64,000 bases of DNA from an uncultured Hoeflea sp. Lineage in GTDB: Bacteria > Pseudomonadota > Alphaproteobacteria > Rhizobiales > Rhizobiaceae. Each line of letters begins with the position of its first letter. Within the stretch, counting starts at the first letter, position 1. The position numbers and the translations under genes are program-made. Under the pieces are notes generated by a model, which was not told the DNA's origin, searched no databases, and was given only the letters and a program-made list of their open reading frames with translations. Shown here in pieces: positions 33,964 through 50,038 of the stretch. Location of the stretch: NCBI RefSeq assembly GCF_947501405.1, contig NZ_CANMVK010000002.1, positions 806,001 to 870,000 of the forward strand, written 5' to 3'.

Positions 33964-33988
33964 CCGGGCGGCCTGTCCCGTCCGGTCA
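33961..33988. terminator. Weak bidirectional hairpin between convergent genes
   Basis: TGACCGG (33961-33967, including the ureohydrolase stop) pairs with CCGGTCA (33982-33988). The stem is only seven pairs and lacks a T-run, so termination is a guess from its position between convergent genes. Confidence 0.35.
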
Positions 33989-34006
33989 GATCTGTGATCC
34001 CGGGTC

Positions 34007-35485
34007 TCAGATGCCGCCCAGGCAGAGATATTTCATCTCCAGGTAATCGTCGACGCCGTATTTGGAGCCCTCGCGGCCCTGGCCCGATTGCTTGACGCCG
34101 CCGAACGGCGCCACCTCGGTAGAGATCAGGCCGGTGTTGACGCCGACCATGCCGTATTCCAGCGCCTCGGCCACACGCCAGACTTTGGAAAGATCGCGGG
34201 CGTAGAAATAGGACGCCAGGCCGAAGATCGTGTCATTGGCCTGTTCAATGACGTCGTCCACACTGTCGAACTTAAACAGCGGTGCGACCGGACCGAAGGT
34301 TTCTTCGCCCGCCACCTTCATGTCCTTGGTCACGCCGGTGAGGATCGTCGGTTCGAAGAAGGTTCCGCCTAGCGCGTGGCGCTTGCCGCCGGTGGCCACC
34401 TTGGCGCCCTTGGCCTTGGCGTCCTCGATGTGCTCGATGACCTTGTCCACGGCATCTTCGCTGATCAGCGGACCGGTGGTGACGCCGTCGGCGAAGCCGT
34501 CGCCGATCTTCATCTTGGCGACCGCTGCCGCGAGCTTTTCGGCAAACGCGTCATAGACGCCCGACTGGACATAGATGCGGTTGGCGCAAACGCAGGTCTG
34601 GCCGTTGTTGCGGTATTTCGAGATCATCGCGCCCTCGACGGCCGCATCCAAATCGGCATCGTCGAACACGATGAACGGCGCATTGCCGCCAAGTTCCATA
34701 GACGTCTTTTTGATCTGATCGGCCGATTGCCGCATCAAAATACGCCCGACTTCGGTTGAGCCGGTAAAGGTGATCTTGCGCACCTTGTCATTGGAGCAGA
34801 ACTCCTGGCCGATGGCGGCGCTGGATTTCGAAGTGATCACGCTCAGCAGGCCCTTCGGCAGACCGGCATCAAGCGCCAGCTTGGCCATCGCCAGTGCTGA
34901 CAAGGGCGTTTCGCCTGCGGGCTTGGCCACGAACGCGCAGCCCACGGCCAGTGCCGGACCGAGCTTACGGGCGATCATCGCATTGGGAAAGTTCCACGGC
35001 GTGATCGAGGCGACAACACCGACCGGCTGCTTGAGCACGATGATGCGCTTGTCGGGCTGGTGGCCAGGAATGACGTCGCCATAAACGCGCTTGGCCTCTT
35101 CGGCGAACCACTCGATGAAGCTCGCGCCATAGAGGATCTCGCCCTTGGCTTCGGCAAACGGCTTGCCCATCTCCGCGGTCAGGATGACACCCAGATCATC
35201 GGCATTGGCGACCATCAGATCATTGAGCTTGCGCAGCACCGCGCCGCGCTCCTTGCCGGTCTTGGCGGCCCAGTCCTTCTGCGCTTCATAGGCCGCATCG
35301 ATCGCCGCGCGGGTTTCTTCGACGCCGATATCAGGGAGCGACGTGATCACCTCGCCGGTCGAGGGATTGAGAACATCGAAGCTCTTGCCGCTCGGCGCCT
35401 TGTCCATCCAGCCGCCGCCGACCAGCGCCGCGCTGACCAGCAGGTCGGGGTTTTTCAGCATGTCTGCCAGAGGTTTGTTGCTCAT
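34007..35485 (-). CDS. gabD: Succinate-semialdehyde dehydrogenase GabD
   Basis: This aldehyde dehydrogenase has 492 residues, with the cofactor segment FTGSTEVGRILM, the general-base block MELGGNAPFIVFDDAD and the nucleophile in NNGQTCVCANRIYV. These are the characteristic forms of the GabD/SSADH group. It oxidises succinate semialdehyde to succinate with NAD(P). Its ATG overlaps the gabT stop (ATGA), so the pair is coupled and forms the GABA shunt exit to the citric acid cycle. Confidence 0.92.
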   Translation of the reverse strand: MSNKPLADMLKNPDLLVSAALVGGGWMDKAPSGKSFDVLNPSTGEVITSLPDIGVEETRAAIDAAYEAQKDWAAKTGKERGAVLRKLNDLMVANADDLGVILTAEMGKPFAEAKGEILYGASFIEWFAEEAKRVYGDVIPGHQPDKRIIVLKQPVGVVASITPWNFPNAMIARKLGPALAVGCAFVAKPAGETPLSALAMAKLALDAGLPKGLLSVITSKSSAAIGQEFCSNDKVRKITFTGSTEVGRILMRQSADQIKKTSMELGGNAPFIVFDDADLDAAVEGAMISKYRNNGQTCVCANRIYVQSGVYDAFAEKLAAAVAKMKIGDGFADGVTTGPLISEDAVDKVIEHIEDAKAKGAKVATGGKRHALGGTFFEPTILTGVTKDMKVAGEETFGPVAPLFKFDSVDDVIEQANDTIFGLASYFYARDLSKVWRVAEALEYGMVGVNTGLISTEVAPFGGVKQSGQGREGSKYGVDDYLEMKYLCLGGI

Positions 35486-36780
35486 CAGGATTTGGCTCCG
35501 ATCTCAGAGTGAACTTCACGAATGGACGCTTCCAGAATGTCCAGCGCCTCCTGGAATACGCCATCCTGAATGGTGACGGGAGACAGGAAGCGGATCACGT
35601 TGGCGTATACGCCGCATGTCAGCAGAATAAGCCCCTTGTCAAGCGCCTTGGCCTTGACCGCGTTGGCGAAGTCGGGGCTTGGCTTGCCGCTCGTAACATC
35701 GTTGAACTCGATGGCATTCATGAAACCGGGGCCGCGAATGTCGACGATTTCCGGCACGTCTTCGCGAATGCCCTGAAGCCGCTGCTTGAGCCGCTGGCCC
35801 AGTTGCGTGGCCCGGTCGCAAAGGTCTTCCTCCGCGATGACATCAAGCACCGCATGGGCTGCAGCAATGCCGATCGGATTGCCGCCATAGGTGCCGCCGA
35901 GTCCGCCGGGGTTGGCCGCATCCATGATTTCTGCGCGGCCGGTAACAGCGGCCAGCGGGAACCCGCCGGCCAGCCCCTTGGCCATGGTGGTCAGATCCGG
36001 CGCGACACCGTGATGCTCCATGGCGAACATCTTGCCGGTACGGGCAAATCCGGTCTGGATCTCGTCGGCGATCAGCAGCATGCCGTGCTTGTCGCAGATC
36101 TCGCGCAGTGACGCGAGGAAGCCTTTCGGAACCTCATAGAATCCGCCTTCACCCTGAACGGGCTCGACAATGATCGCCGCCACGCGGCCGGGATCGACAT
36201 CGGCCTTGAACAGCGTATCCAGCGCCGCAAGCGATTGCCCGGTCGAGACCCCATGAAGCTCGGTCGGGAAGGGCGCGTGATAGACGTCGCCCGGCATCGC
36301 GCCGAAGCCCGCCTTGTAGGGGAACACCTTGCCCGTCAGCGCCATGCCCATGAAGGTGCGGCCGTGGAAGCCTCCCGAAAAAGAGATCATCGCCGGGCGG
36401 CCGGTCGCCACCCGTGCAATCTTGATGGCATTCTCAACGGCTTCCGCGCCGGTGGTGACAAATACTGTCTTCTTGTCGAAATCGCCCGGAACCAGATGGT
36501 TCAAGCGTTCGGCCAAGCTTACATAGTTTTCATAAGGCACCACCTGATGGCAGGTGTGGGTAAAACGGTCTAGCTGGTTCTTGACTGCCTCGATCACCTT
36601 GGGGTGACGGTGACCGGTGTTGACCACGGCGATGCCGGCGGCGAAATCGATAAAGCGGTTGCCTTCGACATCCCAGATCTCGGAGTTCTCCGCCCTTTCG
36701 GCATAGACTTGCGTCATCATGCCGACACCGCGCGCAATCGCGTCGGTCTTGCGGGTTTGGATGGCGGCGTTTGTACCCAT
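35485..36780 (-). CDS. gabT: 4-aminobutyrate aminotransferase GabT
   Basis: This class III PLP enzyme has 431 residues with FSGGFHGRTFMGMALTGK, ADEIQTGFARTGKMF and the lysine in TMAKGLAGGFPLAAVTG, all matching GabT. It transfers the amino group of GABA to 2-oxoglutarate, giving succinate semialdehyde for GabD. It is the first gene of the minus-strand gabT-gabD pair. A TGGTAT-containing inverted repeat lies about 100 bases upstream of its start. Confidence 0.92.
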   Translation of the reverse strand: MGTNAAIQTRKTDAIARGVGMMTQVYAERAENSEIWDVEGNRFIDFAAGIAVVNTGHRHPKVIEAVKNQLDRFTHTCHQVVPYENYVSLAERLNHLVPGDFDKKTVFVTTGAEAVENAIKIARVATGRPAMISFSGGFHGRTFMGMALTGKVFPYKAGFGAMPGDVYHAPFPTELHGVSTGQSLAALDTLFKADVDPGRVAAIIVEPVQGEGGFYEVPKGFLASLREICDKHGMLLIADEIQTGFARTGKMFAMEHHGVAPDLTTMAKGLAGGFPLAAVTGRAEIMDAANPGGLGGTYGGNPIGIAAAHAVLDVIAEEDLCDRATQLGQRLKQRLQGIREDVPEIVDIRGPGFMNAIEFNDVTSGKPSPDFANAVKAKALDKGLILLTCGVYANVIRFLSPVTIQDGVFQEALDILEASIREVHSEIGAKS

Positions 36781-36882
36781 GGTGGCAACTTTCTTTGTAA
36801 TGTGAATTTTGGATGGCTGCGGCGGTGTCCCGCCAGCATTCGGGTGGGCGACTGATCTTGCTACCCAATCTCGGGGAATGAA

Positions 36883-36898
36883 ATACCTCTTTTGGTAT
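36883..36898. promoter_or_regulatory. Inverted repeat upstream of gabT
   Basis: ATACC (36883-36887) and GGTAT (36894-36898) are separated by six bases, 103 bases upstream of the gabT ATG. The right part, TTTGGTATAC, equals ten bases of the palindrome upstream of the pentonate dehydratase. A regulator site is possible but not established. Confidence 0.35.
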
Positions 36899-37105
36899 AC
36901 GGACCCGCGCGCAGCGGAAAAACCGCGGACGGATCGATCCGGAGGCAGCGTTGCCCCAAACCGGATTTTTCAAGCCCTGAACCGGGGTTTTGCGGTAAAG
37001 CCTCCCGGCGCAAGGCCCAGGGCGAGCGTTTCCGGGAGGCGGGCCGCAGGCCAGGCCGTCGTAAAAAAACAGGCCCGGCTTGTGGCGATGCGAACGGTGG
37101 AAAGC

Positions 37106-37134
37106 GGAGGGGCACAAGGGTTCCAGGCCCCTCC
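37106..37134 (-). terminator. Hairpin downstream of bioY
   Basis: GGAGGGGC (37106-37113) pairs with GCCCCTCC (37127-37134), 22 bases past the end of bioY on the minus strand. No T-run follows directly; a TTTTTTT tract comes about 40 bases later. It probably marks the end of the nine-gene operon. Confidence 0.4.
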
Positions 37135-37155
37135 ATGCGCAAATGCCGTCCGGAC

Positions 37156-37758
37156 CTACCGTTTGGCGGGATCGCGATTGACCACCCGCCAGGCCAGCGG
37201 CAGCACCGCGGCGGCCAGGGCAATCTTGAACGCCGCGCCGGGCAGAAACGGGTACAGACCCAGTTCGAGCACCGGCTTGTCCCAGCCGATCACTGCGCCA
37301 AGCCACGCCAAGCCGAAGCCGAAGATAATGGCGGTGCCGAGGCTCATGGCGGCGAGCGTCGACCAGACCTTCCGGTCCCAGCCGCGATGGGCCAGCCAGC
37401 CAACGGTGATCGCGGCCATCAGGAAGCCGAGCAGGTATCCGCCAGTCGACCCCGCCATATAGGCGAGCCCCAGGCCTTTTGCGGGTGTGCCGGCAAACAC
37501 CGGCAGCCCGATCGCCCCTTGCGCGAGATAAAGCGCCACGGTGGCAGCTCCCAGCCGCCAGCCGAACGCCATGCCGATCACCAGCACGCCAAAGGTCTGC
37601 ATGGTCATCGGCACCGGATAGAACGGAACCTGGATTTTGGCCGAAACCCACAGCGCCAGCGCGCCGGCAATCGCCAGCACGACATTGCGCGCCATCGTGG
37701 TTTCGCCGCGCCACAGGGCCAGCGACAGGGTGGGTCGGGTTGGCGTTATTGCGCTCAT
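37156..37758 (-). CDS. bioY: Biotin transporter BioY
   Basis: This membrane protein of 200 residues has about six helices and the conserved BioY block PVPMTMQTFGVLVIGMAFGW, with GLPVFAG and GSTGGYLLGFL. BioY is the biotin-binding S component of ECF transporters and can work alone at low capacity; no bioM or bioN genes are visible. It is the last gene of an operon that also encodes a biotin carboxyl carrier and a biotin carboxylase, so its job here is likely to supply biotin to that enzyme. Confidence 0.88.
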   Translation of the reverse strand: MSAITPTRPTLSLALWRGETTMARNVVLAIAGALALWVSAKIQVPFYPVPMTMQTFGVLVIGMAFGWRLGAATVALYLAQGAIGLPVFAGTPAKGLGLAYMAGSTGGYLLGFLMAAITVGWLAHRGWDRKVWSTLAAMSLGTAIIFGFGLAWLGAVIGWDKPVLELGLYPFLPGAAFKIALAAAVLPLAWRVVNRDPAKR

Positions 37759-37785
37759 GATGATCTCCTCGGTATGGCTCAGCGC

Positions 37786-38760
37786 TCAGGCAAACGGAGC
37801 GCGGATTTGTTCAAGCAGATCGGCGCGGTCGCGCCGGGCGGAAAGGGCTGTGTGCATGTTGACCTTGATGAACCTGGTCGGTGTGTGCGGCTGCAACTGA
37901 CCGATCAGGTCCATATCGGCCGAGATCACCGCGCCGATGGTGAAAAACCCGCCGCCCGACACCGCGTCGCGATGAAGGATAATCGGCTCGGTGCCGCCGG
38001 GAATCTGGATCGAACCATAGGGATAGCAGGAATCGGTGATGTTGGACGGATCCGAACCCGCACCGAAGGGCTGCTCTCGTTCAACGAACTCGATCGGCGT
38101 GCCGCCCTGGAAGCGATAGCCCATGCGGTCGGCCTCGGAAGCCACCTTCCATGTTTCCGCGAAGAAGCGCTTGCCCGCGGCATCGGTCAGCCGGTGCCAG
38201 TAGAGCCCCGGCAGCACCCGCAACTCGACCGGGTTGCCGGGCATCCGCCGGAGTTCCGCCGGGATCGTCGTGCCCTCAGTGACGGCCTTGCCGGGCTGAC
38301 CCAGCGGCAGCACATCACCGGGCTGAACCGCACGACCGTCGACCCCGCCCAGCGCGCCGATCGCATAGGTCGACCGGCTTCCGAGCATCGGCGGCGTATC
38401 GATGCCGCCGGAGACGGCGATATAGGCCCGCGCCCCCGAACGCAGATAATCGAAGCTGAGCACCTGACCGGCCTTGACCTTGAGTGTGGTCCAGGTCGCC
38501 ATCGGTTCGCCATCGAGCTTGGGCGGCAGTTCCGCGCCGGTGACGGCCACCAGCGCATCCTCGGTGAATTCCAGCTCCGGGCCGACAAACACCGCTTCGA
38601 GCGCCGCTGCGCCCTCGTCATTGCCGACCAGAAGATTGGCGGCCCGGAGCGCGAGACGGTCCATGGCGCCGCCCATCGGGATGCCGAGATGGTAATAGCC
38701 CGGGCGTCCCAGATCCTGAATGGTCACCGACAGCCCGGCTGCTTTGACATTAATTGGCAT
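37786..38760 (-). CDS. Biotin-dependent carboxyltransferase-family protein (PxpC/KipA, urea-amidolyase type)
   Basis: The protein has 324 residues with the KipA family opening (SVTIQDLGRPGYYHLGIPMGGAMD) and EFTEDALVAVTGAELPPKLDG. KipA/PxpC and KipI/PxpB correspond to the two halves of the carboxyltransferase domain of urea carboxylase. The start is the ATG at 38760, overlapping the preceding gene by 11 bases; a longer frame to 38817 is unsupported. With a biotin carboxylase and carrier in the same operon, it may act as a true carboxyltransferase half and not only as part of an ATP-driven 5-oxoprolinase. Confidence 0.82.
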   Translation of the reverse strand: MPINVKAAGLSVTIQDLGRPGYYHLGIPMGGAMDRLALRAANLLVGNDEGAAALEAVFVGPELEFTEDALVAVTGAELPPKLDGEPMATWTTLKVKAGQVLSFDYLRSGARAYIAVSGGIDTPPMLGSRSTYAIGALGGVDGRAVQPGDVLPLGQPGKAVTEGTTIPAELRRMPGNPVELRVLPGLYWHRLTDAAGKRFFAETWKVASEADRMGYRFQGGTPIEFVEREQPFGAGSDPSNITDSCYPYGSIQIPGGTEPIILHRDAVSGGGFFTIGAVISADMDLIGQLQPHTPTRFIKVNMHTALSARRDRADLLEQIRAPFA

Positions 38761-39625
38761 AGAGAGCCTCCTCCAGCTTGGCGTTGGTGCCGGCGATGTC
38801 CTTGTTGAAATCTTCAAGCGAAAACATCACCTCGCGGATCCGCGGTTCAAAGGTTCCCGCCTCCACGGCGGCGACGTCGCGGTCATACTCCTCGCGGCTG
38901 ATCGGCTTCCACTTGACGATGTCGCCGGGCTTGAAGAACACCATGAAATCCTTGAGGTAGCTGATCTTCTGCTCGGGATCGAAGATTGGCATCGGCGTGA
39001 TCCCGAACATCTGGTAACCGCCTGCGCCCCGCACCGAGTAGATGCAGGAGAAGGAGCCGCCGTAGCCCACCGTCAGCTTCGGCGTATCGGTGCGCGGCCT
39101 CAGATATTTGGGCACCTGGATCTGCTTTTCGCGCTCGACCATCTGGTAGAGAAACGGCAGGCCTGAAACGAAGCCGACCATGGACACAAACCATGGCGCT
39201 CCGGAATGCGCCTTGATGAAATCGTCCACGCTGTCATAGCCGTTGATCCGCGCGGAGTAGTCCAGATCGGTGCCCGTGGGGTCCTGATGACGCTCGCGAA
39301 ACCGCATCAGCGTCTCGTGGGTCCAGGGATCCTGATAGTAGACCGGAACCTCGATGATGCGGGTGTTGAGCACTGCGTCCGACACGTCGGCGGTCTGTTC
39401 CAGCCGCTTGAGTTCGGCCATGAGATCATCGGGGTGGATGATGTCCGGGTTGAACTTGATCTGGTACGAAGCGTTGGCCGGGCAGATTTCGGTCATGCCC
39501 TTGATGTCCGCCTCGCGCACCGCATTGGTGATCGACAGCGATTTGAAGAACGCTTCGAGCGACATTGCCTCGTCGATCTCGACAAAGATGTGCTCGTCGC
39601 CTCCATGGGTGTACCGCGTTGTCAT
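38750..39625 (-). CDS. Carboxyltransferase-family protein (PxpB/KipI, allophanate hydrolase subunit 1 type)
   Basis: The 291-residue protein belongs to the KipI/AHS1 group: FKPGDIVKWKPIS, YGGSFSCIYSVRGAGGYQMFG and PWFVSMVGFVSGLPFLYQM match the conserved fold, including the GFxxGxxY-like loop. The N terminus is about 60 residues longer than in typical PxpB, as in urea carboxylase domains. The ATG at 39625 (MTTRYTHGGDEH) overlaps the biotin carboxylase stop by four bases. It is predicted to pair with the KipA-type protein encoded next. Confidence 0.8.
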   Translation of the reverse strand: MTTRYTHGGDEHIFVEIDEAMSLEAFFKSLSITNAVREADIKGMTEICPANASYQIKFNPDIIHPDDLMAELKRLEQTADVSDAVLNTRIIEVPVYYQDPWTHETLMRFRERHQDPTGTDLDYSARINGYDSVDDFIKAHSGAPWFVSMVGFVSGLPFLYQMVEREKQIQVPKYLRPRTDTPKLTVGYGGSFSCIYSVRGAGGYQMFGITPMPIFDPEQKISYLKDFMVFFKPGDIVKWKPISREEYDRDVAAVEAGTFEPRIREVMFSLEDFNKDIAGTNAKLEEALYAN

Positions 39626-41007
39626 GAGCCGTTGCCTCCTGTGTTGACGAGTTGGTGGCCATTGGCCTCGAGCCACGGCTCAAGCCATTTGGTGTGAACA
39701 TCGCCGCGTCTGACGTCGCCGGCCTCAGCCAGCGCCAGAAACAGCGGCGTGGTGGTTTTGAGTTTTCCCAGATCCAGCTCGCCCGCCGCGCGCTTGAGCC
39801 GTTCGATGGCCTTGTCGCGGGTGTCGGCGTCGACGATCAGCTTGCCCAGCAGCGAGTCGTAAAACGGTGGAATCTGATACCCGTGATAGAGCATGTGGTC
39901 GAAGCGCACGCCCGGTCCGCCCGGGATCCGCAATTTCTCGACCGTGCCCGGATATGGCATGAAATCATTGGCCGGATCCTCGGCGTTGATCCGCACCTCG
40001 ATCGAATGGCCGCGCACCGTCACCTGATCCTGGCTGATCGACAGCGGCGCGCCGCCGCCGATCGCAATCATTTCGGCCACCAGGTCGATGCCGGTGATGG
40101 CTTCGGTCACCGGATGCTCGACCTGGATGCGGGTGTTCATCTCGATGAAGTAGAATTCACCGTTTTCATCGTCATAAAGATACTCGACCGTGCCGGCGCC
40201 GCGATAGCCGACGGCTCTCGCGAGCGCCACTGCCGATCGGCAAAGATCATCGCGGACCTTGTCCGACAGCGCCGAGGAGGGCGCTTCCTCCCATACCTTT
40301 TGACGGCGGCGCTGCAGCGAGCATTCGCGCTCGTAGCAATGGATGAAGTTCGTCCCGTCGCCCAGGATCTGCACTTCGATGTGCCGCGCCTTGCCGATCA
40401 GCTTTTCGAGATACAATCCGCCATCGCCAAAGGCTGCCTTGGCCTCAGCCGCGGCTTGCGGGGCGAGTGACGCGAACTCTTCCGGCGTTTCGGCAATGCG
40501 GATGCCGCGCCCGCCGCCGCCGGCGGTGGCCTTGATCATCACCGGATAGCCGATCTGAGAGGTCAGCTCGGTGGCGGCCTTCATGTCGGTGATCACCCCG
40601 TCACTGCCGGGAACCGTGGGCACGCCGGCGCGTTCGGCGGCTTTACGTGCCGAGGCCTTGTCGCCCATGGTGCGGATCATCTCGCCGGTGGGACCCACAA
40701 AGGCAATGCCCGCCTGTTCCACCGCATCGGCGAAATCGGCGTTCTCGGCAAGAAATCCGTAGCCGGGATGAATGCCGTCCGCGCCGGTGTCGCGAGCGGC
40801 CTTGAGCACCGCCTCGACATCAAGATAGGATTTCTTTGCCGCTGGCGGGCCGATCTCGACCGCCTCGTCGGCAAGCTGCACGGCCAGCGAACTGGCGTCA
40901 GCGGCGCTGTAGACCTGTACCGTGCGGATGCCGAGTTCCCGCGCCGCCCGGATGATCCGGACCGCGATCTCTCCGCGATTGGCGATAAGCAGTTTGGTGA
41001 TAGCCAT
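39622..41007 (-). CDS. Biotin carboxylase subunit (AccC family)
   Basis: This ATP-grasp enzyme has 461 residues: GYGFLAENADFADAVEQAGI, the glycine-rich KATAGGGGRGIR, HIEVQILGDG and EMNTRIQVEHPVTE are all intact. It uses ATP and bicarbonate to carboxylate biotin on a carrier protein. It is about 10 residues longer than housekeeping AccC and lies between a dedicated carrier gene and two KipI/KipA-type genes, so it is probably a paralogue serving this operon and not fatty-acid synthesis. Confidence 0.85.
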   Translation of the reverse strand: MAITKLLIANRGEIAVRIIRAARELGIRTVQVYSAADASSLAVQLADEAVEIGPPAAKKSYLDVEAVLKAARDTGADGIHPGYGFLAENADFADAVEQAGIAFVGPTGEMIRTMGDKASARKAAERAGVPTVPGSDGVITDMKAATELTSQIGYPVMIKATAGGGGRGIRIAETPEEFASLAPQAAAEAKAAFGDGGLYLEKLIGKARHIEVQILGDGTNFIHCYERECSLQRRRQKVWEEAPSSALSDKVRDDLCRSAVALARAVGYRGAGTVEYLYDDENGEFYFIEMNTRIQVEHPVTEAITGIDLVAEMIAIGGGAPLSISQDQVTVRGHSIEVRINAEDPANDFMPYPGTVEKLRIPGGPGVRFDHMLYHGYQIPPFYDSLLGKLIVDADTRDKAIERLKRAAGELDLGKLKTTTPLFLALAEAGDVRRGDVHTKWLEPWLEANGHQLVNTGGNGS

Positions 41008-41016
41008 TTTAGCCGC

Positions 41017-41259
41017 TCACCCTTCCACGGTGGCGAGCACTTGCCCGGCCATCACCGGGTCGTCGGTATCGGCTTGGAACTCGACGATGGTGCCGTCGAC
41101 TTCGGATTTGACCTGGGTGAAGGTTTTCATCACCTCGATCAGACCGATCACGTCACCTTTGGCGACTGTGTCGCCGACTTCCTTGTAGCTTGGCTCCTCG
41201 GGCGAGGGTTTGCGGTAAAACACGCCCGGCAACGGTGCACGGATTTCTGAAATTGCCAT
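41017..41259 (-). CDS. Biotin carboxyl carrier domain protein (BCCP)
   Basis: The protein has only 80 residues and consists of little more than a biotinyl domain. The biotin attachment motif EVMK places the modified lysine at residue 45, flanked by conserved glycines (AKGDVIGLIEVMK and a closing VMAGQVLATVEG). Housekeeping AccB proteins carry a longer N-terminal linker that is absent here. It lies nine bases before the biotin carboxylase gene and would shuttle carboxybiotin to the KipI/KipA-type subunits. Confidence 0.88.
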   Translation of the reverse strand: MAISEIRAPLPGVFYRKPSPEEPSYKEVGDTVAKGDVIGLIEVMKTFTQVKSEVDGTIVEFQADTDDPVMAGQVLATVEG

Positions 41260-41294
41260 TTTGCTCTCCTGTCAGATTGATTGCCCCAAAGGCC

Positions 41295-42026
41295 TCACAC
41301 AGCCTCAAGGTGAGCGGACAGGGCTGTCCGCAAAGATGTCGCGATTTCAAGTACATTGGGTGTATCGGAATGGATACAGATGGTCTCGGCCCTGACCGGG
41401 ATTTGTTTGCCGTTGACGCTGTCGACCAGCCCTTTTGTCACGGCCTTGACCGCCTTGGCGGCCACCGCCTCGGCGCTGACTGCCTGGTGCTCGCGGGTGA
41501 TCAGCAGCTTGCCGTCATCATCATAGTCGAGATCGGCGAAGAACTCGGCCCGGAAATCGAGGCCGCGGGCGGTGTAGACGGCCTCGTGCAGGGTGCCGCT
41601 GAGACCGAACACCGGCACCTTGAAGTGCTCGGCTGCATCGCTGATCGCATGGGCGATGTGGTCCTGGCGTGCGGCCATGCCGTAAAGCGCGCCGTGAGGC
41701 TTGAGATGATTGAGCCTAATCCCCGCCATGTCGAGAAAGCCCTTCAGCGCGCCGATCTGGTAGATCACGATATTGGCCATCTCGTCGCGATCGATCTTCA
41801 TTTCGCGGCGGCCGAAACCCGGAAGGTCCGGCAGCGAGAAATGCGCCCCCACCTTGATCCCGTGACGCTTGGCAAGCTCCACGGTGCTTCGCATGTGGTT
41901 CGGGTCCGAGCCGTGAAAGCCGCAGGCCACATTGGCTTCGGTGATGAACGGCATGACAGCCTCGTCATTGCCCATCCTGTAAAGACCGAAGCTCTCGCCC
42001 ATGTCGCAATTGATGTTGATTGGCAT
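41295..42026 (-). CDS. pxpA: LamB/YcsF family protein, 5-oxoprolinase subunit A-like (PxpA)
   Basis: The protein has 243 residues with the family opening ININCDMGESFGLYRMGND, then ANVACGFHGSDPNHM, GAHFSLPDLPGFGRR and HLKPHGALY. PxpA opens 5-oxoproline (pyroglutamate) to glutamate together with PxpB and PxpC. Here it stands in an operon with all PxpABC-type parts plus biotin enzymes. It follows the ABC permease gene by ten bases. The true substrate could be 5-oxoproline or another lactam or cyclic amide. Confidence 0.82.
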   Translation of the reverse strand: MPININCDMGESFGLYRMGNDEAVMPFITEANVACGFHGSDPNHMRSTVELAKRHGIKVGAHFSLPDLPGFGRREMKIDRDEMANIVIYQIGALKGFLDMAGIRLNHLKPHGALYGMAARQDHIAHAISDAAEHFKVPVFGLSGTLHEAVYTARGLDFRAEFFADLDYDDDGKLLITREHQAVSAEAVAAKAVKAVTKGLVDSVNGKQIPVRAETICIHSDTPNVLEIATSLRTALSAHLEAV

Positions 42027-42036
42027 GGTCTGGTCC

Positions 42037-43065
42037 TTAATCTTTCAGCGATGCGACATAACGAAGGCGGATCTGGTCAGCGATCACCGCCAGGATGAGC
42101 AATGAGCCCAGGACAACCGTCTGCAGGTAGGATTCGATGCGGGCGAGGTTCATGCCGTTCTGCACAAGGCCGATGAACAGCGCCCCCAGAATGACGTTTT
42201 CCAGCCGGCCGACGCCGCCGCGCAGGCTCACCCCGGCAATCACGCAGGCCGCGATCGATTGCAGCGGCATCGAAGCCCCGATATTGGCTTCGCCGGTATC
42301 GAGCCGGGCCGTGAGCAGCATGCCCGCCACCGCCGCCATGGCCGCGCACAACACATAGGTCATGAACAGAATCGTGCGGGTGTTGATGCCCGAAAGCGCG
42401 GCGGCCTTGATGTTGCCGCCCACTGCATAGACATAGCGCCCCTGTGGCGTGCGGTAGAGGAACAGAAACAGCAAGAGCGCAATGATCACCGCCACATAGA
42501 TGGGGGTGTGTATGCCCAAAAATGTCCCGAAGCCGAAGATGTCGCCAAACGCCTGCGGCATGCCGTAGACCGGGGTGCCGCCGGTCAGGAACAGCGCGAT
42601 GCCGAAGCCGACCGAGGTCATGCCGAGTGACATCATGAAAGGTGACACACCGAAAAAGGCGACACCGATGCCGTTGCACACGCCGATCATGGTGCCGGCT
42701 GCAATGCCCGCCAGGCAGCCAAGCGAAATCGCCAGCCAGATTGCGTCGGGCATGGCCGCGTAAACGCTCGCCATCACCAGCGCGCCGACCACCGAGGTCA
42801 GCGCCAGGATGGTGCCCACCGAAAGGTCGAAGCCTCCGGTCAGCAGCGCCAGCATCTGCCCTAAAGACACGATGGTGAGATAGACCGATTGCCGGAGCAC
42901 GTTCATCAGGTTGCGGCCGGTCAGGAAGTTGTCCGACATCAGCGTAAACACGACGACTGCTATCGCCAGCAGGAATGGCAGGATGCCGAGCCGGACGAAC
43001 AGCCGCTTGGGGATGTCGGCCATGCGGCGGCCCGCGACGGCGGGCGAGGGGGATGGGCCGGTCAC
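42037..43065 (-). CDS. Ribose-type ABC transporter permease
   Basis: This inner-membrane protein of 342 residues has eight to ten helices and matches the RbsC/BPD_transp_2 family (SLGQMLALLTGGFDLSVGTILAL, GVCNGIGVAFFGVSPFMMSLG, CVIAGVSLRGGVGRLENVILG). It forms the pore of the importer with the ATPase encoded immediately upstream (no gap) and the TorT-like binding protein. Despite the sugar-family name, the downstream lactam/amide genes suggest a nitrogenous ligand. Confidence 0.88.
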   Translation of the reverse strand: MTGPSPSPAVAGRRMADIPKRLFVRLGILPFLLAIAVVVFTLMSDNFLTGRNLMNVLRQSVYLTIVSLGQMLALLTGGFDLSVGTILALTSVVGALVMASVYAAMPDAIWLAISLGCLAGIAAGTMIGVCNGIGVAFFGVSPFMMSLGMTSVGFGIALFLTGGTPVYGMPQAFGDIFGFGTFLGIHTPIYVAVIIALLLFLFLYRTPQGRYVYAVGGNIKAAALSGINTRTILFMTYVLCAAMAAVAGMLLTARLDTGEANIGASMPLQSIAACVIAGVSLRGGVGRLENVILGALFIGLVQNGMNLARIESYLQTVVLGSLLILAVIADQIRLRYVASLKD

Positions 43066-44628
43066 TTACGCAACCTCCTTCTCAAAGAAATGCGACAGAA
43101 CATTTGTTTCGGTGATCTCGTCACCAGCGAGTTCGGCCTGGATCCGGCCGCGGTAAAACACGTAGGCGCGATTGGTCAGATGCAGGATCTCCGGAAGATC
43201 GGAGGAAATCAGCAGGATCGCGGCGCCATTGGCGCAGAGTTCGGCGATGAATTCGTAGATCGCAGCACGGGTGCCGACATCGACGCCAACCGTCGGTTCG
43301 TCGAACACCACCAGATCAAAATCGCGCGTCAGGCTGCGCGCCAGCATTAGTTTTTGCTGGTTGCCGCCGGAGAAATGGCCTGCGTCGCGCTCCACCCGGT
43401 GCGGCGACAGATTGAGCTGCGTCGCGAGACTATCGACCGCATTGGCCTCGGCCTTGGCGTTGAGCAGCCAGCCATTGGAAAACGGTGCGATATCCAGCGA
43501 TGCAATGGACATGTTCTCCCGCGCCGAGCGCATCATCATCAGCCCGTCGGTGCGCCGGTCCGACGGCAGATACAAAAACCCGTCCTTGAGCATCTCCTGG
43601 GTGCGCGGGCGTGTGATGGTCCTGCCCTTGAAGACGATACGGCCGCCGGCGATGTCCTCGGCGCCGAAACAGGCGCGGGCGAATTCTGATTTTCCCGATC
43701 CGACAAGCCCCGCGAAGCCGACGATCTCGCCACGGCGGATGGTCACCGAGGCGCCATCGACAAACCCGTCGGCGGTGCGCAAATCCTCGACCTCGAGCGC
43801 CATCTCGCCGGGTTGATAATTGATTTCCGGGAAGATCTGGCCCATCACCCGGCCGGTCATCAGGCTCACCAGTTCGTCGTCGCCGGTGGTCTTGGCGTCC
43901 ACCGTCTTGATAAACTGGCCGTCGCGCATCACCGTGATGCGGTCTCCGATTTCGCGGATCTCGGCCATCCGGTGGGTGATGTAGATGATGCCGACATTCT
44001 GGGCCTTGAGCTTGCCGATCAGCTTGAACAACTGATCGGTCTCGTGATTGGTGAGCGACGCCGTCGGCTCGTCGAGAATGAGCACCGAAAGATCGGAGCG
44101 GAATGCCTTGGCGATCTCCACCATCTGCTGCTCGGCGCGGGTGAGGTGGTCGACCCGCTTGCTGGGCGGCAGGTGGAAATCGAGACTGTCGAGAATTTCC
44201 TGGGCGCGCTGGCGCTGCGACTTGGCGTCGAGCAGGCCGCGCGCTGTGGGTTCTGCGCCTAAAAACAGGTTTTCCGCGACCGTCATTTGCGGGATCAGCG
44301 AAAACTCCTGAAACACAGCCGAGATGCCGAGTTCGCGTGCTTCGTGCACGCTGTCGAGATCGGCATGGCGTCCGTTGAAACGGATCTCACCGGCGGTCGG
44401 CCGGTTGGCGCCTGCGATCATCGAGATCAGGGTGGATTTACCCGCGCCGTTCTCGCCGAACAGCACATGCACTTCGCCGGCGCGCAGCTCGAAATTCATA
44501 CTGTCGAGCGCACGGATGCCCGGATAGTCCTTGATCAGGCCGACGGTCTCGAGCAGGGGGTACGCGCCGTCCTGGCGCGTATCCTCTTCAAGCCGTTGGG
44601 TTGGGAGCGACCCGGCTTGGCTTGTCAT
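43066..44628 (-). CDS. Ribose-type ABC transporter ATP-binding protein
   Basis: This 520-residue protein carries two tandem ABC domains as in RbsA/MglA. The first has a full Walker A (GENGAGKST, near 58-66). The second has the degenerate GLVGSGKSE but keeps its signature FSGGNQQKLMLARSL. Such one-intact, one-degenerate pairs are normal for this subfamily. It powers the permease encoded next and is part of the nine-gene operon. Confidence 0.92.
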   Translation of the reverse strand: MTSQAGSLPTQRLEEDTRQDGAYPLLETVGLIKDYPGIRALDSMNFELRAGEVHVLFGENGAGKSTLISMIAGANRPTAGEIRFNGRHADLDSVHEARELGISAVFQEFSLIPQMTVAENLFLGAEPTARGLLDAKSQRQRAQEILDSLDFHLPPSKRVDHLTRAEQQMVEIAKAFRSDLSVLILDEPTASLTNHETDQLFKLIGKLKAQNVGIIYITHRMAEIREIGDRITVMRDGQFIKTVDAKTTGDDELVSLMTGRVMGQIFPEINYQPGEMALEVEDLRTADGFVDGASVTIRRGEIVGFAGLVGSGKSEFARACFGAEDIAGGRIVFKGRTITRPRTQEMLKDGFLYLPSDRRTDGLMMMRSARENMSIASLDIAPFSNGWLLNAKAEANAVDSLATQLNLSPHRVERDAGHFSGGNQQKLMLARSLTRDFDLVVFDEPTVGVDVGTRAAIYEFIAELCANGAAILLISSDLPEILHLTNRAYVFYRGRIQAELAGDEITETNVLSHFFEKEVA

Positions 44629-44630
44629 GA

Positions 44631-45704
44631 TCAGTCGACCCGGAAGACCGGCTTGAACCCGTCGGGCGCAAGCGTCGAGGACGCGTCGAAATCGGCAAGA
44701 TTGTCGGTGTTGACCACATACAGTGCCGGACCGACGTGTTTTTCGAAGCTTTCGCCTTCCAGCGCCCGCACCGCGATATCGACGGCGATACGGCCCTGCA
44801 GCACGGTCGAATCCGTCGGCGCCGCCACGATCTGGCCGCGCTTGAGACCCTGAGCCACGCCCGGTGTGAAGTAGTAGGAGGCGATTTTGACCTGATCGGT
44901 CAGCCCGCGCGAGCGGATGATCGGCACCGCTGCTTCCGCTGTCACCGCGGTGCCGACCACATAGGCCAGATCCGGATGGGCTTCGAGCGTGTCTTCCACT
45001 AGTTTGGATTGCACTTCCTTGCCGGTGTCGCCGAACTTGGTTTCCACCAGTTCGATGTCGCTGCCTTCGATCGCGCCGGCAAATCCGGCGTTGCCAGCCT
45101 CGACCCAGCCTGCGCCCGAGGGTCCGGGGAACCAGGCGATCTTCACCTTGCCGCTGCCCGCCGGGTGCAGCTTGGCCAGATACTCACCGGTCTTGGCGCC
45201 CATCTCTCCGAACGACACAAGCGACTTCGCGGTAATCTCGGGCGACGAGATGCCGTTGATCACGTCGATCACCGGGATGTCCTTGGCGCGGATTTCCTTG
45301 ATGACATTGTTGAGCCCGTCAGCCGAGATCGCGCCAATGACGACCGCCTGCGCGCCGGCGGCGACACAGTCCTCGATCTGCGAGATCTGGGTGTTGAGTT
45401 CGGTGTAGCCGCCAGCTTCAACGACCTGCATCTTCACGCCAAGGCGCTTGGCTTCCTCGGTGACGCCGTAATTGACGCCGAGCCAGTAGGCGTCCTTCAT
45501 ATGCGGAAACGACACGCAGATTTCCCAGGGCTGGCTGGCCTTTTCCATCGGCGTGTAGTCGATGTCCTTGCGCGGGCTGTTCATGTCGAATGCCGGCTCC
45601 CACACCTGAACCGGTACCGGATACCAGTCATCGGCGAGCGCCGTGGTGGTGGCGGCTGCCGACAGGGCGGCGCTAGCCATGAGTCCAAGAACAAGTGTTT
45701 TCAT
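44631..45704 (-). CDS. TorT-like periplasmic substrate-binding protein of the ABC importer
   Basis: The protein has 357 residues with a Sec signal (hydrophobic to ATTTALA, cut before DDWY). The mature start WYPVPVQVWEPAFDM and the block EKASQPWEICVSFPHMKDAY resemble proteins annotated as TorT, the TMAO sensor partner, within the periplasmic-binding-protein type I fold. No TorS/TorR or TMAO reductase genes are near, so it serves as transport receptor here. The ATG at 45704 has AAGGAA before it. First gene of the operon, divergent from a LysR regulator. Confidence 0.85.
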   Translation of the reverse strand: MKTLVLGLMASAALSAAATTTALADDWYPVPVQVWEPAFDMNSPRKDIDYTPMEKASQPWEICVSFPHMKDAYWLGVNYGVTEEAKRLGVKMQVVEAGGYTELNTQISQIEDCVAAGAQAVVIGAISADGLNNVIKEIRAKDIPVIDVINGISSPEITAKSLVSFGEMGAKTGEYLAKLHPAGSGKVKIAWFPGPSGAGWVEAGNAGFAGAIEGSDIELVETKFGDTGKEVQSKLVEDTLEAHPDLAYVVGTAVTAEAAVPIIRSRGLTDQVKIASYYFTPGVAQGLKRGQIVAAPTDSTVLQGRIAVDIAVRALEGESFEKHVGPALYVVNTDNLADFDASSTLAPDGFKPVFRVD

Positions 45705-46079
45705 GATCAATTCCTTTTGGTTTTCCCTTTGGATGGAACGAGTTCCCGTCAGTTCCTCTTGTCCGCCTTGTCGCCCGAATGAGCAGGGCGCCTGGCGATT
45801 TGACCTCGCCGGAACAGAGTAAGGAGTTGATCTGGGTATTGTAAAATATGATTATTATTAGTCTTGTATTTGAAAAACAGATGCACGATGATGCCCGTTA
45901 ATGGATCGGGCAGCCCACCGCGGCTGATCGCCAAGAGCGTTTATGTGGCGCAAATACCCGTTGGTATTGGGGGTAATTTCAAAGTGCTATCTGGCCGGCG
46001 CAAGAAAGCATCGCCGGAGGGACGTCCGCCCGGTCCGGGTGATATCTGGGTTATCGAATAAGAGGTATTAAAAAATCAG
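45705..46079. promoter_or_regulatory. Divergent control region of the ABC-oxoprolinase operon and lysR gene
   Basis: This 375-base region holds no supported gene. The part nearest the operon (about 45835-45880) is strikingly AT-rich for this genome and is a good place for its promoter. A LysR-type box lies in the half nearest the lysR gene. Confidence 0.5.
45953..45968. promoter_or_regulatory. Candidate LysR-type operator
   Basis: AATACC (45953-45958) and GGTATT (45963-45968) are a perfect 6-bp inverted repeat with a 4-base spacer. It reads ATAC-N6-GTAT and fits the T-N11-A rule of LysR boxes. It lies 111 bases upstream of the lysR start and between divergent genes, as expected for an autoregulated LysR site. 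Confidence 0.55.
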
Positions 46080-47024
46080 ATGGAACCTTCACTTCGGCAG
46101 ATCCGTTATTTCATCGCCACCGCCAATGCCGGTCAGGTTTCCCGCGCGGCCATGGATATCAATGTCTCGCAATCAGCGATCACCACCGCCATCAAATCTC
46201 TGGAGACCATCATCGGTGCGCCGCTGTTTGAGCGGCACGCTGCCGGCGTATCGCTGACTTACGAGGGCAATCACTTTCTCGACCACGCACGCCACATCGT
46301 CGAATCGGTGGAGGAGGCGGTCCGGATCCCGCGCCGTATCCGAGAGGATGTGAAGGGATCGATCAACCTGGCAGTCACCTACACCATCGCCGGCTATTTC
46401 CTTCCGCCCTTCATTTCGCGCTTTGCCCGGGCCTTTCCGAATGTCCGGATCAACCTGTCTGAAGCCGACCGCGCCTCCATTGAGGAAGGTCTGATCACAC
46501 AGGGCTTCGATCTGGCGGTGATGCTGACGTCTAACATCGTCAATCATGAAGAGCTTGCCCACGACACGCTGTTCAAGTCGAGACGGCGGCTGTGGGTTGA
46601 TGCGCATCACAAGTTTCTCAAACAGCCTTCTGTGACCATGCAGGATATCGCCAGCGAGCCCTACATCATGCTGACCGTCGACGAGGCGTCCAACACCGCC
46701 CAGCGCTATTGGAACCGGACCTCCTACAAACCCAATACCATCTTCCGCACATCGTCGGTCGAGGCCGTGCGCTCCATGGTGTCGAGCGGCATGGGCATTT
46801 CGATCCTGTCGGACATGGTCTACAGGCCCTGGTCTCTGGAAGGCCGGCGGGTGGAAACCATCGAAGTCGCCGACAAGGTGCCGACTATGGATGTCGGTCT
46901 GGCCTGGCTCTATGGCAAAAAACACGGCGACGCCGCCAAGGCCTTTGTTGAATTCATGCATCTGGGGATGAGCACTGACCAACCGCAGCACATGAGTGCG
47001 ACCGAGGGGCGCGTCCGGACATAG
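46080..47024 (+). CDS. LysR-family transcriptional regulator
   Basis: The protein has 314 residues with the N-terminal winged helix (residues 4-63; RQIRYFIATANAGQVSRAAM, QSAITTAIKSLE, GAPLFERH) and a C-terminal periplasmic-binding-like sensor domain. It starts at the ATG at 46080 and is divergent from the TorT-like ABC/oxoprolinase operon, so that operon is its likely target. The inducer is presumably the imported compound or a breakdown product. Confidence 0.88.
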   Translation: MEPSLRQIRYFIATANAGQVSRAAMDINVSQSAITTAIKSLETIIGAPLFERHAAGVSLTYEGNHFLDHARHIVESVEEAVRIPRRIREDVKGSINLAVTYTIAGYFLPPFISRFARAFPNVRINLSEADRASIEEGLITQGFDLAVMLTSNIVNHEELAHDTLFKSRRRLWVDAHHKFLKQPSVTMQDIASEPYIMLTVDEASNTAQRYWNRTSYKPNTIFRTSSVEAVRSMVSSGMGISILSDMVYRPWSLEGRRVETIEVADKVPTMDVGLAWLYGKKHGDAAKAFVEFMHLGMSTDQPQHMSATEGRVRT

Positions 47025-47078
47025 GCGATGGGCTTGAAACCCGCGCCGCAGGCCGGCGCAGCATGGAGATCACACTGA

Positions 47079-47384
47079 ATGTGCAGCAATGACAACACGG
47101 GGACGGCGCAGCCCACCGTCTTTATCGAAAACCAGCGCACCCGGGTGACCGAGTGGCGCTTCGCCAGGCGCGGCGACAACACCGGCTGGCACCGCCACGA
47201 CTATGATTATGTGGTGGTGCCGCTGTTTGACGGGCATCTCGAAATCGATCTCGGCAATGGCGAACGGGTAATTGCGCCGGTCAAGAACGGCGTGCCCTAC
47301 TACCGTGATCTCGGTGTCGAGCACGACGTCTTCAACGGCAATGATTTCGAATGCGCCTTTATCGAGGTTGAGTTCCTCAAATAG
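47079..47384 (+). CDS. Small cupin-domain protein
   Basis: This single beta-barrel cupin has 101 residues, with TGWHRHDYDYVVVPLFDG as motif 1 (the His-X-His pair and downstream Asp/Tyr) and YYRDLGVEHDVFNG carrying the second-motif histidine. Small cupins of this type bind a metal and often handle small acids. It follows the lysR gene by 54 bases and may be cotranscribed. Starts with ATG 47079 after GGAGA. No specific reaction can be assigned. Confidence 0.75.
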   Translation: MCSNDNTGTAQPTVFIENQRTRVTEWRFARRGDNTGWHRHDYDYVVVPLFDGHLEIDLGNGERVIAPVKNGVPYYRDLGVEHDVFNGNDFECAFIEVEFLK

Positions 47385-47531
47385 CGCTGTCCGGCGGGCC
47401 GCTTTCGGGACCCGCGACCTTGACTGGAGACAAGGGACGTCGGGCGCGCCAATCGTATGCGATTCTGCATTATGCGCGGCAGGCGCGCGCATGAATGCGG
47501 GACAGGCAGTGGAGGCGGCCGGATTTATGAT

Positions 47532-47562
47532 TTGACCTTCCTGTGACTGGAAGCCCGATGAT
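47532..47562 (+). promoter_or_regulatory. CueR-type copper-responsive promoter of copA
   Basis: TTGACC (47532-47537) and GATGAT (47557-47562) are separated by 19 bases, the over-long spacer typical of MerR-family promoters. Within it CTTCC (47537-47541) and GGAAG (47549-47553) form an inverted repeat spaced by seven. The run ACCTTCC-N7-GGAAG is nearly the E. coli CueR operator of copA. The promoter lies 22 bases upstream of the copA ATG. Confidence 0.75.
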
Positions 47563-47584
47563 GACTTCAATCAAGGAGTCTCCG

Positions 47585-50038
47585 ATGACCAGAACCGCCC
47601 CCAAGCCCGCCCCGCACGCCGCTTCTGCAGAGCATCGCCACCATCCGGGTTGCGATCACTCGCATGGCGAACCGCATGCAACCAAAGCCGAAACATCGAC
47701 GCCGGAAGCCATCCACGCTGCCGCCACCGTGGCGCATGACGGCCAGGTGATTGATCCGGTTTGCGGCATGAAGGTCTCGGTCGATGCTGGTACACCCTCA
47801 CTCGAGTACAGGAATGACCGGTTTCATTTCTGCTCGCAGGGCTGTCACGACAAGTTCGAAAGCGATCCCTACTTCTATCTCTCCGGCAACAAGGCGCGAA
47901 AAAAGCCCGCGACTGCGAGGAGCTCGCTCTACACCTGTCCGATGGATCCCGAAATCATCCGCGAAGAGCCGGGAGCCTGCCCGATCTGCGGCATGGCGCT
48001 GGAACCGATGGACGGGGCAGGCGATGGTCCAAACCACGAACTGATCGACTTCACCTTGAGGCTGTGGGTGAGCGCTGGCGCCGCGATCCCGCTGATCATC
48101 CTGACCATGGGTCCCATGGTGGGGCTCCCGGTGCGGAATTGGCTGGGCGAGACATATTCGCTCTATCTCGAATTCCTGCTGGCCACGCCGGTGATCCTGT
48201 GGGCGGCGCGGCCGTTCTTCCATCGGGGCTGGACGTCGATCAGGACCTGGAACTTGAACATGTGGACGCTGATCATGATCGGCGTCGGCGCGGCCTATCT
48301 TTACTCGACCATCGCCACCTTCCTGCCGCAACTGTTCCCCGCCGGCCTGCAGATGCCCGGCGGGCACATGCCGGTCTATTATGAGGCGGCCGTCGTCATC
48401 ATCGCGCTCGTCTTTGTCGGGCAGGTGCTCGAGTTAAGGGCCCGGGACCGCACCGGCGATGCCATTCGCGCGCTGATCGATCTGGCGCCCAAGACCGCCC
48501 GCCGCATCACGCCCGACGGTGAGGAGTATGACGCACCACTTGAAAACATCATCGAAGGCGATCGCATGCGCGTCCGCCCCGGCGAAGCGGTTCCGGTCGA
48601 TGCTGTGGTGATCTCCGGCAAAAGCGCGATCGATGAAAGCCTGCTCACCGGTGAACCGCTTCCGGTGGAAAAACATGAGGGCGATACGGTCACCGGCGGT
48701 ACCTTCAACAAGAACGGCTCGCTCATCATTGAGGCGACCCGGGTGGGTGACGAAACCATGCTGGCCCGCATCGTCGCCATGGTCGCCTCGGCCCAGCGTT
48801 CGCGTGCCCCGATCCAGGGGCTTGCGGACCGCGTCTCGTCCTTTTTTGTCCCGGTTGTCGTCCTCATTGCGGTCGCGGCCTTCGTGGCCTGGCTTGTTTT
48901 CGGCCCCGACCCGGCTTTCGTCTTCGCCATCGTCTCGGCGGTCTCGGTGCTGATCATTGCCTGTCCCTGCGCGCTGGGCCTGGCAACGCCGATGTCGATC
49001 ATGACGGCCACCGGGCGCGGCGCCCAGGCCGGTGTGCTGATCAAGGACGCTGAGGCGCTCGAGCGCATGGCGAAGGTCGATGTGCTCGTGGTCGACAAGA
49101 CTGGCACCCTGACTGAAGGCAAGCCGACACTGACCGACGTGATCAGCTTCGGCGATATCGGAGAGGCGCGGCTTCTGGCTATCATTGGCGGGCTTGAGAC
49201 GGGTTCGGAGCATCCGCTTGCGGAGGCGATCCTGGCTGGCGTCGCCGATCGCGGCGTCACGCCGTCCAAGGTGGTGGATTTCGAAGCCGTGACAGGCATG
49301 GGTGTGCGCGGTGTTGTCGAGGGCCAACCGGTTGCGCTCGGCAATCAGGCGATGATGCAACGTGAAGGCGTCGGGTTTGACGATGTCTTGGCACGCGCCG
49401 ATGCGTTGCGGACCGGAGGCAAGACCGTGATGTTTGTCGCCATCAACGGCGTCCTGTCGGGTCTGGTGGCCGTCGCCGACCCGATCAAGCCGACCACCAG
49501 GGCGGCCATCAAGGCACTTCGTCGGGCTGGACTGACCATCATCATGGCGACCGGCGACAATGAGCGCACCGCCCGCGCCGTGGCGCGCGAACTCGGCATC
49601 GACGAGGTCCGCGCCGGTGTGTTGCCCGAGGGCAAGAAAGAACTCATCGATGAACTCCATGCCCGGGGCCACAAGGTGGCGATGGCCGGAGATGGCGTCA
49701 ACGATGCACCGGCGCTTGCGGCCGCGGAGGTCGGTATCGCCATGGGTGCTGGCGCCGATGTGGCGGTCGAAAGCGCCGGCATGACGCTGCTCAAAGGCGA
49801 CTTGAATGGCATATTGCGGGCCCGCAAGCTCGCGCAGGCAACGTTGCGCAACATCAAGCAAAACCTGTTTTTCGCCTTTGTCTACAATGCCGCGGGCGTG
49901 CCGGTGGCGGCCGGTCTCATCTATCCGCTGACGGGTACGCTGTTGTCGCCAATGATTGCGGCGGCGGCGATGAGCCTGTCATCGGTGTCGGTCATCTCCA
50001 ACGCTTTGCGGTTGAGGCGGGTGGATCTCGATGCTTGA
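47585..50038 (+). CDS. copA: Copper-exporting P-type ATPase CopA
   Basis: This P1B ATPase has 817 residues. A His-rich N terminus (10-30) is followed by a YHS domain (about 54-102; DPVCGMKV), then a short heavy-metal-binding domain with CPM and CPICGM (118-136). The membrane part holds the ion-translocating Cys460-Pro-Cys462, and DKTGT places the phosphorylated Asp at 504; TGEPLP and GDGVNDAP are intact. The CPC motif with this N-terminal architecture indicates Cu(I) export. The ATG at 47585 follows AAGGAG; an upstream frame to 47543 would include the promoter. It heads the operon containing cueR. Confidence 0.92.

Follow-up and report, generated by a model that had tools for sequence, protein, structure and literature searches.

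Several described enzyme systems come close to the operon considered here, a set of nine minus-strand genes at positions 37156-45704 of a 64,000-nucleotide stretch of DNA (the window; positions 806,001 to 870,000 of contig NZ_CANMVK010000002.1) from an uncultured Hoeflea sp. Urea amidolyase (urea carboxylase and allophanate hydrolase) carboxylates its substrate and then hydrolyses it, and shares with the operon a biotin carboxylase (BC), a biotin carrier and carboxyltransferase (CT) domains A and B (CT_A_B) and C and D (CT_C_D) with the catalytic lysine and a PSNxxD motif. In contrast to this single polypeptide, the operon encodes four separate ones, has the CT halves in the other order, lacks the GDVYLGAP loop, and contains a BC of another lineage and PxpA instead of allophanate hydrolase. 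The 5-oxoprolinase PxpABC likewise combines a PxpA-type hydrolase with two separate CT-type subunits and has a loop that resembles that of the operon, but differs by an arginine in place of the lysine; the operon, moreover, holds a BC and a carrier inside, and its CT subunits score below the PxpB and PxpC cut-offs. The three PxpABC proteins reportedly suffice without biotin (Niehaus 2017).

A passage of PMC13274462 assumes that PxpB and PxpC of the normal PxpABC enzyme phosphorylate 5-oxoproline. The pxpA gene of B. subtilis (ycsF) is described in an excerpt of PMC3412718 as related to lamB, a gene for the use of lactams such as 2-pyrrolidinone in Aspergillus; through this lamB-ycsF kinship the Aspergillus nidulans lam locus for 2-pyrrolidinone use resembles the operon, although the former is fungal and the latter bacterial. 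Valerolactamase OplAB and caprolactamase CapAB open lactams in an ATP-dependent manner and require bicarbonate; passages of the two reports (PMC11033972, PMC8453981) leave room for carboxylation at the lactim oxygen. Unlike the operon, both belong to the hydantoinase A/B family and lack biotin parts, yet genes of this kind adjoin the operon in some of its relatives. Lombard and Moreira (2011) noted paired bacterial UCT-like genes without functional data and left open a partnership with other BCs (PMC3199775). Plasmid records, among which Ruegeria sp. TM1040 has a homologue, currently label the genes as acetyl-CoA carboxylase biotin carboxylase subunit, allophanate hydrolase subunit 1 and biotin-dependent carboxyltransferase family protein, and a literature search by title and abstract, with most subscription journals outside its coverage, returned no description of a biotin-linked PxpA operon.

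Judging from gene content and conserved residues, we consider it probable that the operon imports a lactam or a close cyclic amide and opens it by biotin-dependent carboxylation. 2-Pyrrolidinone is our leading, though tentative, candidate for the substrate, with delta-valerolactam as the alternative. The encoded enzyme might be a biotin-dependent lactam hydrolase in which CO2 acts as a temporary activating group and a hydrolase of the 5-oxoprolinase kind opens 2-pyrrolidinone to 4-aminobutyrate (GABA), a possibility that we take seriously without favouring it outright.

The operon and its biotin parts

The nine genes are transcribed in the order TorT-like periplasmic solute-binding protein (SBP), ABC ATPase, permease, PxpA, biotin carrier, BC, CT_C_D, CT_A_B and BioY. 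Coordinates and profile matches bear out this layout, including all named parts, as the earlier note had placed it. The putative ring-opening hydrolase of the PxpA/LamB-YcsF type (41295..42026) is the sole PF03746 match in the genome (298.6 bits) and scores 280 bits against the PxpA subfamily model NF003814, over the cut-off of 226. It is followed by an 80-residue biotin carboxyl carrier protein (BCCP; 41017..41259; NF005457, 121 over 87), whose EVMKT motif contains the predicted biotinylated lysine K45 (codon 41125-41127), and by the BC (39622..41007; NF009471, 737.5 over 686). The carboxyltransferase consists of CT_C_D (38750..39625; PF02682), in which Lys173 is encoded by codon 39107-39109, and CT_A_B (37786..38760; PF02626), which carries the PSNxxD motif and is the sole PF02626 match in the genome. 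The reading frames of BC and CT_C_D share 4 bp, and those of CT_C_D and CT_A_B share 11 bp given the Met starts chosen for both.

For comparison, 299 Pseudomonadota genomes yielded 137 CT_A_B places, with three fragment rows dropped. These comprised 38 in open frames of more than 1100 amino acids, taken as fused urea carboxylases (24 of which were examined), and 99 others, namely the operon under study, five loci and a further 93. A further 80 loci, mostly from Alphaproteobacteria, were added from a genome collection, out of at least 557 confirmed relatives. The set of related loci (L038-L122) numbers 85. The window-type class, also of 85 loci, was drawn by the CT lysine and contains the operon under study, L135 and 83 of the related loci; L086, in which CT_A_B is cut, was the one related locus that could not be classed. 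As the lysine defines this class, the real test is its agreement with other features. The arginine-type (PxpB-type) comparison loci number 91, of which 74 lack and 17 have a BC neighbour, and 93 control loci were examined with flanks of 5.5 kb, as opposed to up to 10 kb for the related loci.

All five core genes (PxpA, carrier, BC and both CT subunits) were matched in 81 of the 85 related loci, some of them partially at contig ends (e.g. L086), and the remaining four loci are cut by contig ends. Since the five genes are conserved together, the operon is not a chance grouping. Gene order and strand are identical in 80 of the 81 loci with all five genes, with L042 as the exception, and the BC and carrier genes sit between the PxpA and CT genes in 80 of these 81 loci. 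A BC over the NF009471 cut-off occurs in six of the 299 genomes, in all six within 10 kb of CT_A_B and PxpA genes.

Among 86 loci (the window-type class and L042), the carrier was detected in 82, all with the MK motif (45 EVMKT, 35 EVMKS, one EAMKT and one ELMKQ). The BC was detected in 84 and retains, wherever covered, the nine residues that we take to be catalytic by E. coli AccC numbering; two rows were uncovered at two positions. In the operon itself the BC catalytic residues and the biotinylation motif, two marks of a biotin-dependent carboxylase, are intact. The earlier claim that every part of a biotin cycle is encoded thus holds for the carrier, the BC and the two-subunit CT, including their key residues, and the biotin parts look functional at the sequence level.

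In a BC tree of 50 rows, the window-type proteins form a clade of their own (support 96; 99 with L042), apart from the BCs of urea carboxylases, and the BCs adjoining arginine-type loci group at two further positions. The tree suggests that PxpA/CT modules were combined with BC genes on about three separate occasions.

A carboxyltransferase between urea carboxylase and PxpBC

The CT subunits score well below the NCBIfam cut-offs for PxpB (70.7 vs 145.6 bits) and PxpC (224 vs 500 bits). By these models they are not PxpB and PxpC, which corrects the view of the operon as PxpABC with biotin genes added, and a plain PxpABC is ruled out by the cut-offs together with the lysine/arginine split described below. 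The parts are also not those of a fused BC-CT-BCCP chain: they are encoded by separate genes, the urea carboxylase model TIGR02712 (cut-off 1304) gives the individual subunits 27 to 516 bits, and the CT subunits, at 114 and 239 bits, remain far below this whole-protein cut-off.

A passage of PMC5770610 names K1605 as the likely general base of K. lactis urea amidolyase and describes its alanine mutant as severely impaired. This residue aligns with K173 of the operon's CT_C_D. Lysine occupies the position in 24 of 24 fused urea carboxylases, the operon under study, L135, L133 and all 84 classable related loci, and arginine in all 91 PxpB-type loci. The PSNxxD motif of CT_A_B follows the same division, being present in 24/24 fused urea carboxylases, 84/85 window-type loci, L042 and L133 and in none of the 91 arginine-type loci, and further residues track the split. 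In the CT_A_B tree (71 rows; quick method, midpoint root), which sampled 12 of the 24 urea carboxylases, 24 of the 74 arginine-type loci without and all 17 with a BC neighbour, and 16 of the 85 window-type loci, a single branch (Shimodaira-Hasegawa-like approximate likelihood ratio test support, SH-aLRT, 98) sets the window type, L042, L133 and the urea carboxylases apart from every arginine-type row in the tree, on which the K/R position changes once.

The loop pattern GDVYLGAP is met in 23 of 24 urea carboxylases and in none of the 85 window-type proteins, which have a PxpB-like GFVxGLPF in its place. The more general GFxxGx loop is found in 85/85 window-type loci, 72 of the 74 arginine-type loci without and 13 of the 17 with a BC neighbour, and 0/24 urea carboxylases. 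Read from these alignments, the CT protein is a hybrid of urea carboxylase catalytic residues and a PxpB-like loop. The predicted structure of CT_C_D has a mean predicted local distance difference test (pLDDT) score of 63.6, below 50 across the catalytic stretch 172-229; with this low-pLDDT model, Foldseek ranked urea carboxylase first (TMq 0.67-0.69) and YbgJ lower (0.42-0.47), which lends weak support.

These features bear directly on the idea of a split carboxylase for urea, guanidine or another ureido compound in which PxpA replaces allophanate hydrolase. Such an enzyme would share the catalytic lysine, the PSNxxD motif and the tree position with urea carboxylases, but it is improbable given that the GDVYLGAP loop is missing in 85/85 loci, that no allophanate hydrolase or deiminase model matches any of the nine genes and that the BC comes from another lineage.

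Neighbouring genes and the candidate substrate

On the operon strand, gabT (35485..36780; 4-aminobutyrate transaminase; NF005692, 834.5 bits over 724) lies 375 bp behind bioY and is abutted by gabD (34007..35485; succinate-semialdehyde dehydrogenase; TIGR01780, 715.7 over 646, and NF008415, 763.8 under 828). This gabT is the only one in the genome to pass NF005692, the next best scoring 250 bits. GabT (at least 50% identity) occurs in 14 of the 85 related loci, GabD in 12 and either of them in 15, as opposed to none of the 93 control loci with their shorter flanks. Within matched 5.5-kb flanks, GabT is found in 11 of 64 related loci vs 0/91 arginine-type loci; against the alphaproteobacterial arginine-type loci only (0/35), Fisher's test gives p = 0.007, which is a guide only, the loci being related. 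On the CT_C_D tree, the GabT-or-GabD label (16 rows including the operon under study) takes at least 12 changes. In L055 (Hoeflea poritis), the gabT reading frame overlaps the CT_A_B stop, beginning 3 bp before its end, and is followed by bioB, bioF, bioD and bioA, of which bioB, bioD and bioA exceed their cut-offs and bioF has TIGR00858 as its best match (335 under 426). In L068, gabT starts 35 bp behind CT_A_B, and the gabT of both loci is over the NF005692 cut-off. The window also contains a second class III aminotransferase gene (27201-28442; NF005685, 738.7 over 485), whose cluster is found near 7 of the 85 related loci.

With gabT and gabD as neighbours, a GABA-yielding lactam is a better fit than 5-oxoproline. 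A 5-oxoprolinase variant that uses biotin and converts 5-oxo-L-proline to glutamate would agree with PxpA being the genome's only member of its family and passing the PxpA subfamily cut-off, and with the PxpB-like loop. It is nevertheless unlikely, as the CT subunits fall under the PxpB and PxpC cut-offs, the lysine and PSNxxD are not of the PxpBC type and the GABA genes adjoin the operon.

Hydantoinase A/B (Hyu/Cap)-family genes lie near 24 of the 85 related loci (17/64 in matched flanks), among them a CapA cluster in 11 loci and a CapB cluster in 10. With one representative scanned per cluster, CapA and CapB scored 1260.6 and 1106 bits, over the caprolactamase cut-off of 1000, and the other Hyu family falls below it (277 bits for its one HyuB representative). 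Xanthine-dehydrogenase-type (molybdenum hydroxylase) subunits are encoded near 12 related loci (8/64 in matched flanks), namely L038, L039, L041, L050, L052, L056, L100, L103, L107-L109 and L121. Genes of neither kind occur near any of the 91 arginine-type loci. Both sets of neighbours point to cyclic amides, and a molybdenum hydroxylase might supply the lactam by acting on a cyclic imine. CapA-type caprolactamase genes adjoin the operon in L082, L084, L087, L093, L098, L102, L114 and L118-L121, where two unrelated ATP-dependent lactam systems stand side by side.

The same neighbours would fit the opening of a different ring, such as a hydantoin, a cyclic imide or a lactam that a molybdenum hydroxylase derives from an N-heterocycle. 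For the operon under study this is improbable, as no member of either cluster turned up within about 9 kb of it, and gabT and gabD adjoin it.

Since lamB is linked to the use of 2-pyrrolidinone and gabT and gabD are present, conversion of 2-pyrrolidinone to GABA is the first guess. In the proposed reaction, the TorT-like ABC importer would take up the lactam, and the BC would carboxylate biotin on the 80-residue carrier using ATP and bicarbonate. The CT would then carboxylate the lactam at its nitrogen (or at the lactim oxygen) and so weaken the amide, PxpA would hydrolyse the ring, and the resulting N-carboxy-amino acid would lose CO2 to give an omega-amino acid. The net reaction would be lactam + ATP + H2O to amino acid + ADP + Pi, with bicarbonate as a catalyst as in urea amidolyase, and GABA formed from 2-pyrrolidinone would be converted to succinate via GabT and GabD. 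Carboxylation of a lactam or amide ahead of PxpA, as first suggested in the earlier note, gains indirect support from the urea carboxylase lysine, the intact BC and carrier residues and the conserved position of their genes between PxpA and CT (80/81); the substrate and the chemistry are predictions.

Several observations weigh against biotin-dependent lactam opening. No gabT or gabD of 50% identity is present in the available flanks of 70 of the 85 related loci, and in the operon under study gabT is set apart by its 375-bp gap, with promoter and terminator scans around the operon scoring at about chance level. By raw score, CT_A_B matches E. coli YbgK (182 bits) better than urea carboxylase (154 bits). 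Where CapAB stands beside the operon, it would duplicate lactam opening without explanation. In addition, a BC neighbour is present in 17 of the 91 arginine-type loci, and the title of PDB entry 9yx5 describes MSMEG_0435-0436 bound to the mycobacterial long chain acyl-CoA carboxylase complex. This CT pair belongs to the same family as that of the operon and is, by that title, in contact with a BC complex, but is of the arginine type by alignment. Given 9yx5 and the arginine-type pairs with BC neighbours, biotin use cannot be read off strictly from the lysine. As a strict marker of biotin genes the lysine is ruled out by the same 17 loci and by L133, which has the lysine and no BC neighbour. 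The 17 loci (L132, L145, L152, L154, L158, L161-L163, L165-L167, L169, L171, L177, L179, L184 and L187) comprise 12 that carry a long BC gene and, for the most part, a fused PxpBC, and five that are unfused, with a BC nearer to AccC.

L133 (genome G237, G237:C6) also counts against the proposal in its own right: it encodes PxpA and a lysine-type CT pair with neither a BC nor a carrier of its own close by, and the best BCs retrieved from its genome are at 53% (an AccBC-like pair) and 49% (another). Together with the 74 of 91 arginine-type loci that have no BC neighbour, it would suit a scheme in which acyl-CoA carboxylation is the task of the BC and the carrier, and PxpA and the CT pair work free of biotin, like PxpABC. 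We regard this scheme as very improbable, given that the operon has no acyl-CoA carboxyltransferase gene, that a separate AccB-AccC-like pair is encoded elsewhere in the Hoeflea genome and that BC and carrier are placed between PxpA and CT in all but one of the loci with all five genes. The AccB-AccC-like pair also makes it unlikely that the carrier serves only acetyl-CoA carboxylase, an outcome that the earlier note had named as fatal to its proposal.

Import, regulation, biotin supply and wider meaning

The SBP (44631..45704) scores 417.7 bits against the TorT model NF008185 (cut-off 200) and 298 bits against TIGR02955, under its cut-off of 310. Its nearest solved chain is 4yhs (479 bits), followed by TorT 3o1h (189 bits), and homologues are found in 47 of the 85 related loci. 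Trimethylamine N-oxide is a doubtful importer substrate, the SBP being closer to 4yhs than to TorT. The ATPase (43066..44628) and permease (42037..43065; PF02653) are nearest to those of sugar importers.

A LysR-family regulator is encoded divergently (46080..47024, plus strand), and 67 of the 85 related loci contain a homologue with 45% identity or more. The unit probably extends to this gene and to gabT/gabD (34007-36780, minus strand), both of which the earlier note had omitted. An Rfam search of 33500-48000 gave no match. Beside the LysR gene lies a 101-residue gene (47079-47384), the cluster of which occurs in 14 of the 85 related loci and includes a relative that matches Cupin_2.

BioY (37156..37758; PF02632) is one of three copies in the host genome, in which no bioB over cut-off was found. 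Given these copies and the lack of such a bioB, BioY probably feeds every biotin enzyme of the host and is not private to the operon's enzyme, a further point against the proposal, and the idea of a dedicated biotin importer is weakened. Thus, of the claim that the operon is self-contained with its own biotin uptake, what stands is the recurrence of biotin supply genes behind the CT genes in relatives. BioY occurs in 23 of the 85 related loci, on the same strand; with extrapolated ends, its distance behind CT_A_B is 187 bp in one locus and 6-71 bp in the other 22. The bioB gene, over cut-off in each case, occurs in three (L055, L067 and L074). Neither is present in any of the 91 arginine-type loci, and the one BioY match among the 93 control loci is L135, which is of the lysine type.

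The known substrates of biotin carboxylases comprise CoA thioesters, keto acids, urea and guanidine; a lactam, if confirmed, would be a new substrate class for biotin-dependent carboxylases. The list of substrates in PMC3199775 is without guanidine. If true, the proposed function would also give a role to genes that many genomes (at least 557 related stretches) at present list under acetyl-CoA carboxylase or allophanate hydrolase, and may offer a mild enzymatic opening of the stable lactams with five- and six-membered rings that serve as monomers of nylon-4 and nylon-5.

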